A stretch of DNA of 20,734 bases, taken from positions 1-20,734 of IMG/VR virus record IMGVR_UViG_3300047276_000170; one strand, given 5' to 3'. Positions within the stretch are counted from its first letter, which is position 1, and each line of letters begins with the position of its first letter. The notes beneath the pieces were generated by a model. That model searched no databases. It saw nothing but the letters and a program-made list of their open reading frames with translations, and was not told where the DNA came from. This DNA comes from a virus. Of this stretch, positions 13,082 to 20,734 are shown piece by piece. Both the position numbers and the translations under genes were made by a program.

Positions 13082-16000
13082 TGGCTAGCTGCAACGACCT
13101 CGCTGAAGAGCTGCGTCGGATTGACGCTGAACTTGAAGCTCTCGACTCCACCCAGCGTGGACTGAACGCGCAAGCAGCACTTGCCGATGGTCAGCCCAAG
13201 GGCAAGCCAAAGGTGCTCAAGACCTACACCGGTGATGAGGTGACCCTCGACCCCGGCAAGTGGGTGACCGAGGCGGAGATGGACGCCATGCAGATGGGCG
13301 ATGAAACCGTCCGTCAGATGGTGTCAGCTGGGTTCCAAGGCAACCGGACACCGAACGGTCGCACCGGTCGGATGGTGAACTACAGCCAGATCGACCCCAG
13401 CCAGGAGAACATCGCCCTGCTGCTGGAGGTGATGGGGCTCAAGCGTGCCAGCACCGACAAGGGTGTGGAGCTACGCCGGCCGTTCACCAACCAGGCTGCA
13501 GCTAAGGCGCTGATGGCCATGGCGCAGAAGGAAGGTGCTGACCCTCGAGCGGTGGCCGAGGCATTGCAGAAGCGGGTGAAGGGAATCGACAACCTGCCCA
13601 GCGCGGTCTATGCCGCAGCGAAGGCGAAGTGGGATGCAGCCAGCCAGTACACCGACGTGCTCGAGGAGCTGGCCGATGCCATGGACGGTGGCTTCCTCAC
13701 CGATGAGCTGAAGCACCAGGCCGGCAACGCTGCGAAGTGGGCGCACTTCTATGAGCAGCTGGATGCACAGGTGCGGCGGCGTGTCGGCCAGGCACTGAAG
13801 TCCATGCAGTTCAAGCAGGACGCTGAGATCACCCTGGTGGATGTGGGCAAGGACATCCAGGACCTGACGCTGGATGACATCACCGGCAACAGCCTGGTCG
13901 GTGACATGTTGAAGGTGGTGGCTGAGGGCAACGCCAAGGCGCTGCGGCAGATGGCTGCAGCCAAGCGTGCGGACCAGGCACTGGGCCTGAATCAGCCTGG
14001 GTTCTTCCGTGACCTGAGCCTGCTGAACAGCTTGCGGCGGGCAAACCTGTTGTCCTCGTTTGCGACCTGGGCTGTTCGTAACCCGCTGTCGGGTGCGCTG
14101 GTGCAGGGCATCTACATGACCGAAGACATGGTGTCCGGCAGCTTGCGCCTTGCTGCGAAGAACGGGATCAGAGCTGGTGTGGCTGATGAGCTGAAGGCTG
14201 CTGGCTTTGCTGGCCGCGCTTTCGTCGATGCGTTCGGCATGAGCTGGGGCAACTTCAAGGAGGCGTTGTCCACCGGCAAGACAACGGTGGCGACTGACTC
14301 ACTGAAGTACGTGGATTCAGTCGATGAGATGCGCAGCTCCAAGGCCATCGTCAACGCTGCTTTTGATTCCGCATGGGAGGACATCACCAGCTGGAAGGGT
14401 CTGGCCAATCCGGTGTCGGTCCTCAACTTCATCAACGGCGGGTTCTGGAAAGTCTTCGGCGGTGGCGTTGAACGACTGACCGGATCCGATGCGGGATACA
14501 TGGCACCGTTCCGCATCCTGAACGCAACGGATGACTTCATGCAGACGCAAGCGTTTGCGTGGAAGAGCAGCCATGAAGCGTTCGTTCGTGCTGCTGAGGA
14601 GGGCAGAGCAGCAGGTCAAGGTGCGGAGTGGATCGAGCGGCGTGCTGATGAGCTGGCCAGCAAGTCGATGTTCAGCGGTGTCTTCACCGATGACGAGCTG
14701 GTCCAGTACCGCAAGGCGCGGAACGCGGAGTTCGGCATCCCGGTTGGAGGAGACATCGACGATGACGAGCTGCGGGCCATGCTCTACAACCAGCTGAAGG
14801 GTGTGCCCAACACCGAGTCAGAGCTGGGCCGGCTGTCTCTTGATCGTGCAAAGAACAGCACCTTCACCGGTGAGGTGACGGGCATGGCCGCACCGTTCGT
14901 GAACGGTGTGCAGCAGATGCGATCCAATCCGTTCATGGCATGGGCACTGCCGTTCTGGAAGGTGCCGATCAACGGAATCGGCTGGGTGTTGAACCGCGAT
15001 GTAATCCTTGCAGTACCCAAGCAACTGCTGATGGAAGGTCAGCAGCTGATGGGCAAGGGTCAGAAGTTCACGGTGGAGGAGATGGCTGATGCCAGGGCCC
15101 GCACTGCAGTGGCAGTTGCAATCGCTGGCATGACCCACGTGATGTGGGAGAACGGGTTCTTCACTGATGGTGGATCGTTTGATCCTCGTCAGCGGGAACG
15201 TGAGCGCAGGAACTGGAAGCCCTACAGCTTCAGCCTGGCCGGCACGTTGGCTGAGGCGACCAAGTTCCAAGGCAGCTCGATCGACGTGATCGACCTGATG
15301 GGTCTGCACGCTGATGTCCTTCGCGCCTACCACGACGGCGTGATGACGTGGAAGGAAGGCGAGGTGAACATGGTCCCGATCCTGGTGGCCTACGGCAACC
15401 TGATCAAGAACAAGGCAGCGCTGAAGAACATCACCAGCATCATGAACTGGATGCAGGACCCACAGCGTTACGACTTCGGTCGGGTGCTGGGTGATCAGAT
15501 GGGTGGCCTGCTGCCCCTCAGTGGTTTCGGTGGGACCATCTCTCGTTCCTTCTCTGATGCAGAGGAGATGATGGCGAAGCGGCGGATGCTGTCAGCCAAC
15601 GAGGTGGCAGCACTGAAGAACGATCCGAACTACAAGCTGATCCAGCCAGTGATCAACGCGCTGCAGTCAGCAGGTGATGCGTTCGTGAAGGGCAACGCTG
15701 GCATCCTCGGTGGGCTGCTGCCACGGGAGAAGGACTGGCTGGGCAACAGCATCCAGCGACCGCTGGGTCTGCCGGTGGATCTGACCATCCCGTTCATGCC
15801 AGTGATCAAGCCACAGGATCAGCTGTATCAGTGGCTGGAGAAGCATGGCTTTGGAGATAAGCCACGGCCTGACGGCACCTTTGAGATGGGTGGTGCCAAG
15901 GTCCAGATGAGCAATGAGGAGGAGGACTTCTACCGGGAAGAGATGAGGACGGTGCGGGGTGAGATCCCACCGGAGGCGATCGGTCAATCCGCTGGTCGCC

Positions 16001-16353
16001 TGATGCCGATCTGGCAGTACGTGCAGGGCCAGGACCTGGCGGGTGCACTGCGGAATCTGATGCGTGATCCGAAGTACAACCAGCTACTGGATGATCCGAC
16101 CGGGGGTGTCAGCCCGAGCCTGGCAGTGCAGCAGGGCAAGAGCCTGGCTGAGCGGAAGCAGTCAGGCGGCGGCAAGCTCTACGCCCCAGTCGATGACATC
16201 ATCAACTACTACGACCGGCTGGCATTGATGAAGCTGCTGAGCAACCAGCAGTTTGATTTCCGCCAGCGCTATCAAGCAGTGCTCAGGCAGAAGCAGGTTG
16301 GGTTGCAGCAGTATGCGGAGAGCATTAACGGACTAGGGGTGTCTCGCCAATAG
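13081..16353 (+). CDS. Giant internal virion/ejection protein (gp16 position), polyvalent-protein-like
   Basis: This protein has 1090 residues and is the last and largest of the internal-protein block, immediately before the fibre gene, as gp16 is in T7 (1318 residues). It is mostly helical. Residues 624-631 (PFWKVPIN) match the PF-x-x-T/V-P-x-N motif that recurs in C-terminal regions of phage large polyvalent and internal virion proteins, just before a hydrophobic segment. Further hydrophobic stretches occur near 320-350 and 675-695. Unlike T7 gp16, the N-terminus has no transglycosylase signature; that activity seems to sit on the 1033-residue protein. An alternative GTG start at 13075 would add two residues. 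T7 gp16 forms part of the periplasmic and inner-membrane channel for DNA entry, and this is the inferred role here. Confidence 0.75.
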   Translation: MASCNDLAEELRRIDAELEALDSTQRGLNAQAALADGQPKGKPKVLKTYTGDEVTLDPGKWVTEAEMDAMQMGDETVRQMVSAGFQGNRTPNGRTGRMVNYSQIDPSQENIALLLEVMGLKRASTDKGVELRRPFTNQAAAKALMAMAQKEGADPRAVAEALQKRVKGIDNLPSAVYAAAKAKWDAASQYTDVLEELADAMDGGFLTDELKHQAGNAAKWAHFYEQLDAQVRRRVGQALKSMQFKQDAEITLVDVGKDIQDLTLDDITGNSLVGDMLKVVAEGNAKALRQMAAAKRADQALGLNQPGFFRDLSLLNSLRRANLLSSFATWAVRNPLSGALVQGIYMTEDMVSGSLRLAAKNGIRAGVADELKAAGFAGRAFVDAFGMSWGNFKEALSTGKTTVATDSLKYVDSVDEMRSSKAIVNAAFDSAWEDITSWKGLANPVSVLNFINGGFWKVFGGGVERLTGSDAGYMAPFRILNATDDFMQTQAFAWKSSHEAFVRAAEEGRAAGQGAEWIERRADELASKSMFSGVFTDDELVQYRKARNAEFGIPVGGDIDDDELRAMLYNQLKGVPNTESELGRLSLDRAKNSTFTGEVTGMAAPFVNGVQQMRSNPFMAWALPFWKVPINGIGWVLNRDVILAVPKQLLMEGQQLMGKGQKFTVEEMADARARTAVAVAIAGMTHVMWENGFFTDGGSFDPRQRERERRNWKPYSFSLAGTLAEATKFQGSSIDVIDLMGLHADVLRAYHDGVMTWKEGEVNMVPILVAYGNLIKNKAALKNITSIMNWMQDPQRYDFGRVLGDQMGGLLPLSGFGGTISRSFSDAEEMMAKRRMLSANEVAALKNDPNYKLIQPVINALQSAGDAFVKGNAGILGGLLPREKDWLGNSIQRPLGLPVDLTIPFMPVIKPQDQLYQWLEKHGFGDKPRPDGTFEMGGAKVQMSNEEEDFYREEMRTVRGEIPPEAIGQSAGRLMPIWQYVQGQDLAGALRNLMRDPKYNQLLDDPTGGVSPSLAVQQGKSLAERKQSGGGKLYAPVDDIINYYDRLALMKLLSNQQFDFRQRYQAVLRQKQVGLQQYAESINGLGVSRQ

Positions 16354-16370
16354 GGAGGCCGGTAGCCTGA

Positions 16371-16386
16371 GAAGTGCACAGGTGCA
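16371..16386 (-). repeat. TGCAC-N2-GTGCA inverted repeat, copy 3, before the fibre gene
   Basis: GAAGTGCACAGGTGCA on the + strand is the exact reverse complement of the 16-mer at 2719-2734. It fills most of the 42-base gap between the gp16-position gene and the fibre gene and ends 9 bases before the fibre ATG. The only Shine-Dalgarno-like bases (AGG at 16380-16382) lie inside its centre, 13 bases from the start codon. In T7 the promoter phi17 occupies this gap, so position suggests a promoter, but the orientation of the 16-mer is opposite to that of copy 1. Confidence 0.6.
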
Positions 16387-16395
16387 AGCCTTCCG

Positions 16396-17328
16396 ATGGC
16401 GATCCCTACCCCCTACTCCTACCGCCAGTACACAGGGGATGGGACTGCCAAGACCTTCAGTGTCCCGTTCCCGTACCTGGCCAGGGCTCACGTCCACTTG
16501 TGCCTGGACAGCAAGGAGCTGAAGGACGGGACGGACTTCAACTGGACCAGCGGCACACAGGTGCAGCTAACCATTGCTCCCCAGGCACCAGTCACTGGCA
16601 CCACGCCCAAACCAGCTGAGGTACTGACGGTCCGGCGTATCACGCCAGAAGACAGTCAGATCGTCCAGTGGAAAGACGGCAGCTACATCATTGCTGCGGA
16701 TCTGAATGAATCTGATCTGCAGTGGCTGTACCTGATCCAGGAACACCACGACTGGTTGATTCGCCAGGAGAACAACCTTGGGGCATTGCCTGGTGGGGGT
16801 GGCAGCACAGGTGCTGTCAGCCAGTACTGGAACAAGCTGGCGCGGCACCTGGACCCAGCCAAGGACACGGCCAATGAGAAGGCCAATGTCGTTGACACCA
16901 AGGACCAGAAAACACCTGATGCCACTGGCCTGAAGTCTGCTGGCTGGATTGCTGATGACGACCACATCGCCACCACGGGTGCGCTGAGTGAGCGGTATGA
17001 CGTTTACGTCCAAGACACCAAGCCACCGGATCCCCCGATCACGGAGGTGCGTCAGCCAGGGAAGATCTGGATTGATGATGGGGTTCTGCAGATCAATTAC
17101 TGGGAGCCCACGGCCAAGGCCTGGGTGAACCTGGCCAGCACTGGCCCCGAGGGTCCGGCTGGCCCTGCAGGCCCTCAGGGGCCAACAGGTGCAACAGGGC
17201 CAGTCGGTCCCGCCGGTGCACCTGGTCCTGCTGGAACGTACTTGGCGGAAACGCCAATCATTCTGGCTGCAACTGGTTCAACGACCACTATCAAGTTCGA
17301 CCCCATTCCTCTACCCACTCTTCCCTGA
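16396..17328 (+). CDS. Tail fibre protein with T7 gp17-type N-domain and collagen-like stalk
   Basis: This protein has 310 residues. Residues 1 to about 135 are the T7 tail-fibre N-terminal domain that docks on the nozzle: YTGDGTAKTFSVPFPYL near the start, then DLNESDLQWLYLIQEHHD leading to a Gly-rich linker (GALPGGGGS). The middle part (170-245) carries a short PGKIWIDDG...YW-type beta segment. Residues 250-282 are eleven consecutive Gly-x-y triplets, a collagen-like trimeric stalk. Only about 28 residues follow, so the receptor-binding tip is missing from this chain and must come from partner proteins encoded downstream. It is much shorter than T7 gp17 (553 residues). The stop is a lone TGA, in frame with the next gene, which starts 3 bases later. 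It probably acts as the adaptor half of a multi-protein fibre. Confidence 0.9.
   Translation: MAIPTPYSYRQYTGDGTAKTFSVPFPYLARAHVHLCLDSKELKDGTDFNWTSGTQVQLTIAPQAPVTGTTPKPAEVLTVRRITPEDSQIVQWKDGSYIIAADLNESDLQWLYLIQEHHDWLIRQENNLGALPGGGGSTGAVSQYWNKLARHLDPAKDTANEKANVVDTKDQKTPDATGLKSAGWIADDDHIATTGALSERYDVYVQDTKPPDPPITEVRQPGKIWIDDGVLQINYWEPTAKAWVNLASTGPEGPAGPAGPQGPTGATGPVGPAGAPGPAGTYLAETPIILAATGSTTTIKFDPIPLPTLP
17143..17241 (+). repeat. Collagen-like Gly-x-y repeat (11 triplets)
   Basis: Eleven uninterrupted Gly-x-y codon triplets lie near the end of the fibre adaptor gene, with Pro commonly second and Ala, Gln, Thr, Val or Glu filling other positions. Such segments form trimeric stalks in phage fibres and are hot spots for length change by recombination. 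Confidence 0.9.
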
Positions 17329-17331
17329 GTC

Positions 17332-18435
17332 ATGGCTGTTCAATCCACTGATCTGCTGGTCGTTAATCGTTCCGGCACGAACTACAAGGTCTCGTGGCAG
17401 ACCTTAAAAGCTGACACCGCTTACACCCTTCCCAACGCTGCTGCTGCCGTCCTTGGTGGCGTCAAGGTTGGCACCAATCTGTCGATTGACTCTGGCGGTG
17501 TTCTATCTGCCAACCTGCCTGGCGCCCTGATTTACAGGGGCACCACTGATCTGACGGGTACACCTCCTGGCACCAAGGTTTCTGGCGATGTCTACGTCAA
17601 CCGCAAAGCTGGCACGATCAACGGTGCTTGGACTGGCCTGAGCGGCACCGCCACTGTTGGCGAGATGGTGCTGTGGGATGGCACCAAATGGGACATCGTT
17701 GGCAACGGTGGTGCTGCTGGCGTCACCAGGGTGACCGGCACTGCTCCTGTTGTTGTTGGTGGCACTGCCCAGCAACCAGACATCACCGTCAGTGCTGCCA
17801 CCACTACCGCGGCAGGTCTGCTCAGTGCCGCTGACAAGACCAAGCTGGATGGCATCGCAGCTGGTGCAGCTGCTGGCACCGTCACCACGGTCACAGCCAG
17901 CTCACCGCTTCACGTCACAACGCCGACCACAACACCGGCGCTGAGCATTGATGACGCCACCACCGCTGCAAAAGGCGTGGTGCAACTGGCGGATGCAGCG
18001 GCTGTCACAGCTGGTACGGCTGGCCTAGTCGTAACAGCTGATCAGCTCAAAACCACCAACGATGCAATCGCCACAGCAGCAGGCGGCGGCATCACCACGT
18101 TGACTCCAACTGCACCGATCACGGTGACAGCTGGTGCTAACGCTCAGACCAAGGTGATTGGCGTTGGTACTGCCACTAATGCAGCGACAGGTGTGCTGCG
18201 TCTGGCAACAGATGCTGAGGCCACTGCTGGCACCTTGGAAACCGTTGCGGTTAATCCCAAGCAACTGGCCAGCAAAACTATTGCGCAGGCCACCAGGACC
18301 GTTGCAGGCAAGGCTGAGATCGCCACTGAAAGCGAGATCACTGCTGGCACAGATGACACCCGGTTCATTTCTCCGCTGGGTGCCAAGACCACGTTGATGC
18401 CATACGACATCAGCACTCTGACTGTCCTGCCCTGA
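17332..18435 (+). CDS. Repeat-rich tail fibre/stalk protein
   Basis: This 367-residue, Thr/Ala/Gly-rich protein has no charged catalytic sites. It opens with one copy of a short module (residues 4-21, QSTDLLVVNRSGTNYK-type) that recurs three times in the next gene. Residues 34-61 have the VLGGVKVGTNLSID phage-tail repeat. About 67-125 has a GDVYVN...WTG...GEMVLWDGTKW module. AGLLSAADKTKLDGIAAG (about 163-180) and three AKGVVQLAD / TGVLRLATD / AGKAEIATE repeats (about 209-350) are typical of trimeric phage fibres. The start ATG lies in the same frame as the preceding fibre gene, separated only by TGA-GTC, and has no ribosome site, so expression by coupled re-initiation or stop read-through is likely. 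It probably extends the adaptor stalk. Confidence 0.8.
   Translation: MAVQSTDLLVVNRSGTNYKVSWQTLKADTAYTLPNAAAAVLGGVKVGTNLSIDSGGVLSANLPGALIYRGTTDLTGTPPGTKVSGDVYVNRKAGTINGAWTGLSGTATVGEMVLWDGTKWDIVGNGGAAGVTRVTGTAPVVVGGTAQQPDITVSAATTTAAGLLSAADKTKLDGIAAGAAAGTVTTVTASSPLHVTTPTTTPALSIDDATTAAKGVVQLADAAAVTAGTAGLVVTADQLKTTNDAIATAAGGGITTLTPTAPITVTAGANAQTKVIGVGTATNAATGVLRLATDAEATAGTLETVAVNPKQLASKTIAQATRTVAGKAEIATESEITAGTDDTRFISPLGAKTTLMPYDISTLTVLP
17341..17394 (+). repeat. 18-residue fibre module, copy 1
   Basis: This stretch encodes QSTDLLVVNRSGTNYKVS, which aligns without gaps to three copies in the following gene. The consensus is Q-x-T/G-D-L/V-L/F-V/I-V-x-R followed by K/S-V/I/A-S/T eight positions later. 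Confidence 0.75.
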
Positions 18436-18454
18436 GCCAAGCGCCTGATCACCA

Positions 18455-19825
18455 ATGACCGTTCAGAACACTGACGTTTTTGTTGTTAGCCGTGGCGGCA
18501 CGCTGCACTCGGTGACTGCCGCCAATGCCAACGGCAAGATTCAGGACACTGACCTGTTGGTGGTCAGGCGTGGTACAACCACTTACAAGATCACGGGGAA
18601 GGTATTTAAGGCTGCTGCCTTTCAAGACGGTGACCTGTTCATCGTTAATCGGAACCACAAAAGCTATAAGGCCACAGGAGCTGTTGTTAAAGCCATCCTG
18701 CAGAAGGCACCGATCATTCAGGTGGTGACCTTAGCTGAGGATGATGCAGCAGGTGCAGCGTTCACCAGTCAATCGTTCACCGCAACGATCACGATGACGG
18801 AACCGGGTATGCCGGTTGCTACGCATAACCTCAAGGCATGGGTGGAGGGGACGCTTAACGGCGTTGCCGGTGCCCGCCTGTACCTGAAGTTCAACGCTGC
18901 TGGTGCAGTGTCTGACCTGCAATCAGCTGATCCTGGGTGGGTGCAGACGACGGATCAGGCCACACCAAAGCTGACGTTTCCTGCCACGCTTCCGTCAGGC
19001 AAGAAGCCGGATGAGGAGCTACCTGCTGGCACCACGATCACCGTGGAAGCACAGGCCACCAACGCAGCAGGTACGGTCACAAAGGTGAGCAACATCATTG
19101 TTCCCAGTAGGCCAGCTCCGCCGAAGCCTGGTGATGCAATGGGTGGTGGATTCTTCGCCGGTCAGATCAATGATGGCGGCGTGATTTATAACTTGATTGT
19201 TGCCCCAAAAGTCAGCGGCACGCTTCATGGAGAAATAAGCAAGATTGCGTGGGGCACGTCAACAAGAGCACTTAATGGTGTTTACATAAACAAGCACGAT
19301 GGCCGCGTCGGGATGGGAGACGCGAATCGCAAGGCTAACTACGCTGGCCAATACCCACTTATCGAGTGGGTAGAAACAAATCCAACAGGACCGAACAAGG
19401 GTCATTGGGATCCGACGAATAGTGTTGGCACAGGCATAGGAGGCTTCAATGATTGGTACATTCCTTCTGTCTACGAGGCTTTCATTGTGTTCTTTGGCTT
19501 GAAGGGGCAATCGGCTGCTAACAGTACTTCCACTGCATTGGCGGAGCTTGGTGCGAACGGCACCAATCCGTATTCTGTTGCGCCATACACGCCTAACACG
19601 CCATTCACGGCTACATTGCCCGGAGTAACAACGGTCCCTGCGTTTATCACTGGTAGCGGCGCAGAGGCGTTCCCTAACTACTTTGAAATGTGGACCAGCA
19701 CAGAGTGCGATCCAGGCAACAAGGACAGCGCGTACTTCATCAGCATGTGGGATGGCGATATGCACCGCTCACAGAAGACGGCCTCAAACAGAGGCGCCCG
19801 CGCCATCCGCCGTGTACCCGCTTAA
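18455..19825 (+). CDS. Tail fibre protein with C-type-lectin/DUF1566-like receptor-binding tip
   Basis: This protein has 456 residues. The first 75 contain three copies of an 18-residue module (4-21, 30-47, 57-74) like the start of the preceding gene. Residues about 88-220 form an Ig-like beta domain (SFTATITMTEPG, TITVEAQATNAAGT), followed by a Pro linker near 222-232. Residues 238-456 resemble the DUF1566/Lcl, FGE-type C-type-lectin fold: GGVIYN (241-246), WGTST, GFNDWYIPS (330-338), WTSTE (413-417), then K-x5-RGARAIRRV at the end. This fold is used as a ligand-binding head in many phage and bacterial adhesins, so it is a likely host-receptor tip. G+C falls to about 51% in 19201-19560 by hand count, against 62-65% in sampled internal-gene segments, suggesting acquisition by exchange. 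No clear ribosome site precedes the ATG. Confidence 0.8.
   Translation: MTVQNTDVFVVSRGGTLHSVTAANANGKIQDTDLLVVRRGTTTYKITGKVFKAAAFQDGDLFIVNRNHKSYKATGAVVKAILQKAPIIQVVTLAEDDAAGAAFTSQSFTATITMTEPGMPVATHNLKAWVEGTLNGVAGARLYLKFNAAGAVSDLQSADPGWVQTTDQATPKLTFPATLPSGKKPDEELPAGTTITVEAQATNAAGTVTKVSNIIVPSRPAPPKPGDAMGGGFFAGQINDGGVIYNLIVAPKVSGTLHGEISKIAWGTSTRALNGVYINKHDGRVGMGDANRKANYAGQYPLIEWVETNPTGPNKGHWDPTNSVGTGIGGFNDWYIPSVYEAFIVFFGLKGQSAANSTSTALAELGANGTNPYSVAPYTPNTPFTATLPGVTTVPAFITGSGAEAFPNYFEMWTSTECDPGNKDSAYFISMWDGDMHRSQKTASNRGARAIRRVPA
18464..18676 (+). repeat. 18-residue fibre module, copies 2 to 4
   Basis: Three in-frame copies lie at 18464-18517, 18542-18595 and 18623-18676, spaced 26 and 27 codons apart. 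They encode QNTDVFVVSR, QDTDLLVVRR and QDGDLFIVNR starts. The DNA copies have diverged, so selection appears to act on the protein, not on the nucleotide repeat. Confidence 0.75.
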
Positions 19826-19828
19826 GCC

Positions 19829-20149
19829 ATGACTGAATACACTCCAACCCCTGAAGAGCTTGAAGCCATCCGTCTTGAAAACGAGAAGATCGCTGCTGAA
19901 CTAGCAGCTATCCCTGAATGGGAACGCGCTAATCGTCAAGCCAAAGCACGGTTTGACTACATCAACCAACAACTCAGCTCCTATGAAAACCGTAGGGCTG
20001 AGTTTCAGAAGATCCCTGAGTGGCAGCCCAACACCACCTACCAACCTGGGGATGAGGTGCGTCATGAGCACCGCAAGTTCATCAAAGCTGATGACAACGA
20101 CCAAAGCCCACCAGATGATGTAGCCGGCGGCTGGCTACTCGCCACCTAA
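19829..20149 (+). CDS. Small tail-associated protein with coiled-coil and carbohydrate-binding-like C-terminus
   Basis: This protein has 106 residues. Residues 8-60 are a charged helix (ENEKIAAEL...NRQAKARFDYINQQLSSYENRRAEF) likely to form a coiled coil. Residues 62-106 have W65, Y71, G74-D75, F84 and W102 in the order W-x5-Y-x2-G-D-x-V-x...F...N...W. That is the pattern of CBM5/12 (ChtBD3-like) chitin- or sugar-binding modules, including the N-x-x-P-P-x...W ending. The IPEW motif occurs twice (28-31 and 62-65). It lies between two fibre genes, 3 bases after the previous stop, so it may be a fibre accessory, a decoration protein or a fibre chaperone. No ribosome site is evident. The fold call rests on a few aromatic landmarks and should be treated as tentative. 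Confidence 0.6.
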   Translation: MTEYTPTPEELEAIRLENEKIAAELAAIPEWERANRQAKARFDYINQQLSSYENRRAEFQKIPEWQPNTTYQPGDEVRHEHRKFIKADDNDQSPPDDVAGGWLLAT

Positions 20150-20163: not shown

Positions 20164-20734
20164 ATGTCTTTCCCCTTTCCCAAGAATCCAACAGATGGTC
20201 AGCAGGTCACTCAGGCCCAAGCTGACGGCACTGTTCTGGTTGCCACCTACGTCCAGGCCAAGAATGAATGGCAGGTGACGCGGACGGTTCCGAAGGATCC
20301 AACGCTGACGTTGACCGCCGCTACGGCGTACACGGTGACGCCTGGTGCTGACGGTCAGGTGTTGACCTTTGATTCCAGGTTGAATCAGTGGGTTGGTAAG
20401 GCGCCTGCTGCCGCAAGCGGTGGTGGAGGGGGAACATTTATCAAGGCAACGCAGGCGGGTGCCGATACCACCAACCCTCCTGATCCAGCCAAACCGACAG
20501 AACTGTTGAAGGCAGGGATGCTGCAGAGCACACCAGAGAACCTGCATAAGGAGCTGAAGGTATGGGATGGGACGGCTTGGGCTGAGCTATTTGGCGAGGA
20601 CACGATCAAGCAGTGGATTGCCGCCGGTTCACTCTTCCGCAGCACCCTGCAGCAGCCTGGAATCAGCGCCCTGCCAGCGCCTGCTGCCGTCAACCGTGGC
20701 TACTACTGGACCTGGGCAGGAGCATCGGGCTACG
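20164..20734 (+). CDS. Tail fibre-like structural protein, N-terminal part (runs off window)
   Basis: The frame is open from the ATG at 20164 to the last base, giving 190 residues with no stop. Residues 1-75 are Thr/Val-rich beta sequence with a DGTVLVATY...EWQVTR module and a W near the end. A Gly-rich hinge (SGGGGGTF) follows at about 83-90. The rest contains LKVWDGTAWAELFGEDTIKQWIAAGSLF and a YYWTWAGASGY segment, a style common in cyanophage virion structural and fibre proteins. There is no catalytic motif. It follows the small CBM-like gene by 14 bases and has its own good ribosome site, so it is a separate translation unit within the fibre cassette. The product is most likely another fibre or tail-tip component; its receptor-binding end, if any, is outside the window. 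Confidence 0.7.
   Translation, partial: MSFPFPKNPTDGQQVTQAQADGTVLVATYVQAKNEWQVTRTVPKDPTLTLTAATAYTVTPGADGQVLTFDSRLNQWVGKAPAAASGGGGGTFIKATQAGADTTNPPDPAKPTELLKAGMLQSTPENLHKELKVWDGTAWAELFGEDTIKQWIAAGSLFRSTLQQPGISALPAPAAVNRGYYWTWAGASGY

Follow-up and report, generated by a model that had tools for sequence, protein, structure and literature searches.

How did the tail fibre of a T7-like podovirus come by its outermost domain, and what would that domain do? The question is raised by a 20,734-base IMG/VR virus fragment (IMGVR_UViG_3300047276_000170, analysed whole and called the window here), whose record covers about half a genome, the structural half, with genes for capsid, tail tube, nozzle, internal virion proteins and fibres. 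Its last fibre gene, the tip gene, follows two others (fibN and fibM) and precedes orf106 (Table 1). Among named phages, Synechococcus phage S-SRP02 from freshwater comes closest (nozzle protein identity 61.6%) and has been described as a cyanopodovirus of a new lineage (PMC8790148); because of this nearest relative, the host is likely a picocyanobacterium, making this a Synechococcus/Cyanobium-type podovirus. A sequence-only reading had placed a recently exchanged, compositionally distinct lectin-like tip, able to set host range, in the C-terminal 219 residues, from position 19135. We find it probable that the fibre is modular and ends in a receptor-binding domain of lectin fold, the tip, which is exchangeable, either through a docking head at the start of its gene or by a swap of the whole cassette. 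A lectin-fold tip in an exchangeable cassette is ordinary in kind, and its recent junction is well placed.

A probable exchange junction relative to a siphovirus-type phage

A single other viral contig was found with the N-terminal and spacer sequence of the tip (3300047276_000517, L017/L002; hereafter L017). It comes from an unrelated, siphovirus-type phage, with similarity to a major tail protein and to central fibre J, and the 8,370-base stretch of it that was analysed matches two window genes only, fibM (patchily) and the tip gene. The docking heads of the two tips are 66% identical in amino acids. At the DNA level the tip genes share 62.5% identity over codons 1–80 and 99.2% over codons 81–123; likelihood puts the change best at 18689, where identity rises from 61.5% to 99.3% (log-likelihood ratio 44.6). 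The switch falls just after the docking repeats (codons ~79–83, nucleotides ~18689–18702), and the final 122 nucleotides of the L017 contig are identical to the window (18703–18824), with the reading frame kept in both. So sharp a switch points to a recent exchange. The earlier proposal of an exchanged tip is thus upheld in substance and moved in place, from a boundary at 19135 to a junction some 440 nucleotides upstream.

Two observations weigh against reading too much into this exchange: the end of the L017 contig lies within the tip gene, which limits the visible sharing to ~136 nucleotides, short of the lectin domain, and no relative combining the docking head and this spacer with a different lectin emerged from searches that returned L017 only. 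The shared part being the last ~136 nucleotides of a contig, where assemblies are least safe, the identity could also stem from a chimeric contig end. We consider such an artefact unlikely: the switch occurs in the same frame and at the homologous codon of both genes, the preceding 234 nucleotides are only 61.5% identical and so offer no long shared word to misjoin, and genuine sharing would likewise end a contig inside a stretch common to two phages.

Predicted Lcl-type fold of the tip

The C-terminal part of the tip protein matches Pfam Lcl_C (DUF1566, PF07603; E = 4.4e-4, 21.0 bits, profile positions 38–111 of 117). In an alignment of the window protein with 19 phage homologues, 18 of the 20 members reach E ≤ 0.01 against Lcl_C (best 1.8e-16), and the motif GGFNDW is invariant. 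A model of the domain built from the alignment of the 19 homologues (predicted local distance difference test (pLDDT) 66.6, predicted template modelling score (pTM) 0.75) has as its best Foldseek match in the PDB the C-terminal domain of Legionella Lcl (8q4e; probability 0.92, E only 0.12). Structural comparison of the two gives Z 11.8 (root mean square deviation 3.1, 126 of 131 residues), next to a Bacteroides fimbrial protein at Z 11.3, with C-type lectins and formylglycine-generating enzyme (FGE) at Z 5–6; a sequence profile reaches the same Lcl chain (E = 8.6e-5). On the predicted model, the tip has an Lcl-type C-type-lectin fold, in line with the sequence-only assignment to a DUF1566/C-type-lectin type; the absence of any predicted lectin or FGE fold, which would have spoken against it, was not what we found.

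Several points count against too firm a reading. The Pfam score lies under the curated cut-off (34.9 bits), and we call the domain Lcl_C-like for that reason; the domain model is only of moderate confidence, and a model of the full-length tip protein is poor (pLDDT 52), with three hairpins at the docking head, for which Pfam lists no match.

In Lcl itself, the C-terminal domain forms a C-type-lectin-like trimer that follows a collagen stalk and has sulphated glycans as ligands (PMC11162425). The window domain resembles it in predicted fold and DUF1566-type sequence, and in having a collagen-like stretch upstream, here in a separate gene (fibN). It differs in its greater length (by ~100 residues), in an insertion that precedes IGGFNDWY and in its place in a phage fibre. 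We infer that the tip may bind a host surface glycan and may affect host range.

Cassette and backbone among relatives

A core-protein scan collected nine related loci. Core identity to the window is 92% for L018–L020, 86% for L021, L022 and L024, and 55% for L038/L039. The six closer loci share the fibre anchor with the window, and none of fibM, the tip gene and orf106 has a match in them; in L018 and L022, pectate-lyase-type spikes stand in place of the window cassette. The sequence-only reading would have failed had relatives kept the same tip with uniform divergence; these backbone relatives have no such tip. DNA similarity to L018 (80%) stops where the anchor domain does, at 16751, and that to L022 (81%) at 17172, in the collagen-like part of fibN, while fibN protein similarity ends at residue ~119 (L018) or ~247–259 (L022). 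Downstream, the window gene behind orf106 resumes the backbone, its match in L018 (17310–17870) sitting directly behind the swapped cassette of that phage.

The cassette has other affinities. Anchor residues 1–119 are 87% identical to L038, the closest of three (L018 82%, L022 84%), and among these three only L038 has fibM, which is 52% identical over its full length in L038/L039. Behind fibM, L038/L039 carry a gene with the same docking head and another tip; the same head bears other tips in L038/L039/L080, L082, L084, L085 and L086, those of L038/L039/L080 having the second domain of Mtd (E = 1.4e-16) and an FGE-like end. By these identities, backbone and cassette have different nearest relatives. 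Between whole phages the swap takes in the complete cassette that follows the anchor, with fibM, the tip gene and orf106.

A lectin-like domain in this position might instead be a structural trimeriser, or attach the virion to a target other than the host receptor. We hold this to be rather unlikely, since the domain ends the last fibre gene, where relatives carry pectate-lyase spikes or Mtd-like tips, a setting that fits receptor binding better.

S-SRP02 (Autographiviridae, freshwater) shares the order of structural genes and an anchor at 48% identity with the window and has a different fibre end, fibM, the tip gene and orf106 all being without match there. Named phage records contain no DNA similarity to 18440–20149, and no prophage or host copies of the tip were found among one genome per species.

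In L022, the spike gene (15620–17461) fuses an N-terminal domain of Mtd (E = 1e-15) to the pectate-lyase-type body, and behind it an open frame on the minus strand (17664–18362) reads, by eye, like a tyrosine integrase; S-SRP02 likewise carries an annotated integrase.

Base composition of the cassette

The tip had been singled out partly by composition, and the underlying counts hold. G+C over 19201–19560 is 51.1%, against a hand count of roughly 51%, and the lowest 360-bp stretch of the window is 19180–19539 (48.6%; window mean 59.7%, s.d. 2.6). Codons reported as scarce elsewhere are indeed commoner in the tip domain, although few codons are involved: ATA makes up 3 of 13 isoleucine codons there versus 1 of 274 elsewhere (P = 3e-4), and AGA 2 of 8 arginine codons versus 7 of 350 (P = 0.015).

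These features do not set the tip apart. G+C at third codon positions (GC3) is 72% upstream, 58% in fibM, 62% in the docking and spacer part, 56% in the tip domain and 53% in orf106, and no difference separates the tip domain from fibM and the N-terminal part of the tip protein taken together (P = 0.31). The idea of a tip forming a low-G+C unit of its own is rejected, the shift spanning fibM to orf106.

Fibre ends usually diverge fast. That habit, together with low GC3 spread across the whole cassette rather than the tip alone, would suit a native, fast-evolving fibre whose low G+C reflects relaxed codon choice, with no recent exchange. We regard this as very improbable: neither the jump from 61.5% to 99.3% identity (log-likelihood ratio 44.6) nor the discordance between backbone and cassette follows from rate alone, and the account could stand only if the L017 stretch were an artefact.

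Retroelements in the tip slot of sister groups

Could the tip instead be the target of a diversity-generating retroelement (DGR)? The family to which it belongs invites the question. Among 19 records with a DUF1566-like domain in the domain-alignment scan, many of them short fragments, five carry a reverse transcriptase. A search of 22 records found the enzyme in two (L005 and L013, both outside this phage group), a search of another 15 records found it in three, and the records of L069, L070 and L073 have it as well. In the two loci examined, all mismatches between template and variable repeats of the DUF1566-like targets lie at template adenines (23 of 23 in L005; 21 of 21 and 20 of 20 in L013), the pattern of a DGR target, so that the DUF1566-like family itself is, by its repeats, a target elsewhere; DUF1566 is reportedly the commonest Pfam domain among DGR targets (PMC6642488). 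In L013 (2–1083), two tandem DUF1566-like genes share one common template repeat, with mismatches only at adenines in each.

Two sister podovirus groups add to the case. L080 extends the L038/L039 phage (99.6–99.8% DNA identity over ~2.6 kb) and holds a complete DGR: a tip (Mtd second domain as above; FGE-like end at 2e-4, slightly under cut-off), bAvd (1.5e-20), a template repeat and a reverse transcriptase (1.4e-13). Its template and variable repeats mismatch at 11 positions, all template adenines. Over the part of the variable repeat that L039 reaches, L080, L039 and the template disagree at eight positions, again all at template adenines; L039 disagrees further in the last three bases of its contig, which are not at template adenines. 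In the second group (core identity 54–58%), L048 and L049 each have a tip, an accessory gene (tested for bAvd in L048), a template repeat and a reverse transcriptase; every mismatch is at adenine (20 of 20 in L048, 23 of 23 in L049). A reverse transcriptase is present in the L052 record too, and the fetched stretches of L046 and L052 end too early for a template repeat. DGRs occupy the tip slot in both groups; our searches of open-access papers listed none on DGRs in this cyanopodovirus group.

The contigs of L038, L039 and L052, from DGR-bearing phages, stop within the variable repeat or shortly ahead of it, which would be expected were the assembly broken by population diversity. Two fibre genes of L048 (1880–2632 and 2830–3096) clearly seem to share a ~45-residue tail (FSVG.PG..PFGVGPV.PPG.AF...PIH..SGSF.), which is visible in part in L049 (4769–5503 and 5948–6343) and is perhaps another fibre joint.

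The window differs from these loci. The sequence-only reading had suggested a search for a reverse transcriptase and a template repeat, and neither is present: the 20.7-kb record, about half a genome, has no DGR-type reverse transcriptase, and the tip end does not recur in the window (at least 72% identity over 60 nucleotides, or at least 68% over 50 nucleotides for 19600–19825), a threshold passed by all template–variable pairs of L005, L013, L048, L049 and L080. In these five loci the template starts 440–570 nucleotides behind the variable repeat (for L013, the nearer repeat). The corresponding stretch behind the window tip lies inside the window, where it holds orf106 and a structural gene, so a DGR of usual layout would have shown up; the nearby template repeat with adenine-only mismatches that marks a DGR target is missing. 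A DGR acting on the tip from nearby is not supported, and we give very little credence to the tip being an active target served by a reverse transcriptase in the genome half outside the record, despite the precedents in its domain family and in the sister groups.

Like Mtd of Bordetella phage BPP-1 and other DGR-diversified tips, the window tip is a predicted lectin-fold domain that ends a podovirus fibre. Unlike them, it stands in a record without a DGR and is DUF1566-like rather than Mtd/FGE-like, whereas its relative L080, with the same docking head, bears an Mtd-like tip and a DGR. Both the swapping of fibre ends and the diversification of lectin tips by DGRs are known. Here a single cyanopodovirus slot holds a fixed lectin tip in one phage, hydrolase-type spikes in others and lectin tips driven by DGRs in still others. 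The alternation of fixed and DGR-driven tips is unusual. Part of a tip gene is common to a siphovirus-type phage at ~99% DNA identity. These viruses appear to trade parts probably used for host-cell recognition, and they offer a natural system for comparing two routes to new receptor binding.

A possible joint between fibre genes

fibN is a T7-type podovirus fibre by its N-terminal Phage_T7_tail anchor (E = 2.3e-26). This conserved anchor would hold the fibre to the tail, with fibM as its extension, and the tip protein is probably attached to the end of fibM by the repeats that open the tip gene. Since attachment would need the docking head only, any gene bearing that head could supply a tip. 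On this reading, recombination behind the head, or in and behind the anchor, has equipped closely related tails with different tips and whole cassettes, and has brought one tip gene onto unlike tails.

Run on 160 fetched loci, a docking-head pattern picked out 10 distinct genes that directly follow a readable gene. Eight of the preceding genes have LP at their end, and the remaining two finish in IPALT and TLPTD. Across 526 distinct open frames of at least 250 codons, nine end in LP, and all nine directly precede a docking-head gene, eight recognized by the pattern and one, window fibN before fibM, by eye; the nine represent about two protein families, partly fetched by similarity, and are not independent. 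Among named phages the docking motif occurs in Krakvirus, with weak matches in Kyanoviridae, Klebsiella and other phages. Krakvirus S39C11 (AP013549, 'putative lectin') resembles the window in carrying docking-type N-terminal repeats on a gene behind the fibre (42% over the docking head); its protein is very long, and no similarity to the window tip domain was found in it. In the Kyanoviridae phages S-CREM2 and S-B68, the genes before three dock-like genes lack the LP end, which counts against a general rule. As a lead, the '-LP' end and the TDLLVVNR-type repeats possibly form a plug-and-socket joint. A wider proposal, which we offer tentatively and would not yet rely on, is that picocyanobacterial podo- and siphoviruses share this joint and trade tips across tail types, with DGR-diversified (Mtd-like) tips and fixed, traded (DUF1566-like) tips competing in one slot.

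Feature coordinates and minor observations

Table 1. Fibre cassette of the window and its flanks.
Feature	Position	Strand	Evidence
fibN: fibre anchor (Phage_T7_tail, residues 5–119), collagen-like C-terminal part, end ...IPLPTLP	16396..17328	+	Pfam E 2.3e-26; Collagen E 8.4e-5
fibM: middle fibre protein, head TDLLVVNR..YKVS, end ...DISTLTVLP	17332..18435	+	PHROG tail-fibre matches, E 1e-11
Tip gene, 456-residue protein	18455..19825	+	
Docking head of tip gene: three putative TDLLVVNR-type beta-hairpin repeats, codons 1–80	18455..18694	+	Sequence; hairpins in low-confidence model
Putative exchange junction relative to L017	18689..18702	.	Likelihood change point 18689
122 nucleotides identical to end of siphovirus-type contig L017	18703..18824	+	Reading frame same in both
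Spacer, docking head to lectin, weakly bacterial-Ig-like	18695..19111	+	Pfam Big_7, E 0.1 only
DUF1566/Lcl_C-like tip domain with predicted C-type-lectin fold, residues ~224–456	19124..19822	+	Pfam, profile, alignment, fold model
orf106: weak CBM_5_12 similarity, belongs to low-GC3 cassette	19829..20149	+	Pfam E 9.8e-4, 19.5 bits, cut-off 26.2
Next structural gene, runs off window; backbone resumes	20164..20734	+	50% identity to L018 17310–17870

The weak CBM_5_12 match of orf106 has a similarly weak counterpart in the tip protein of L085.
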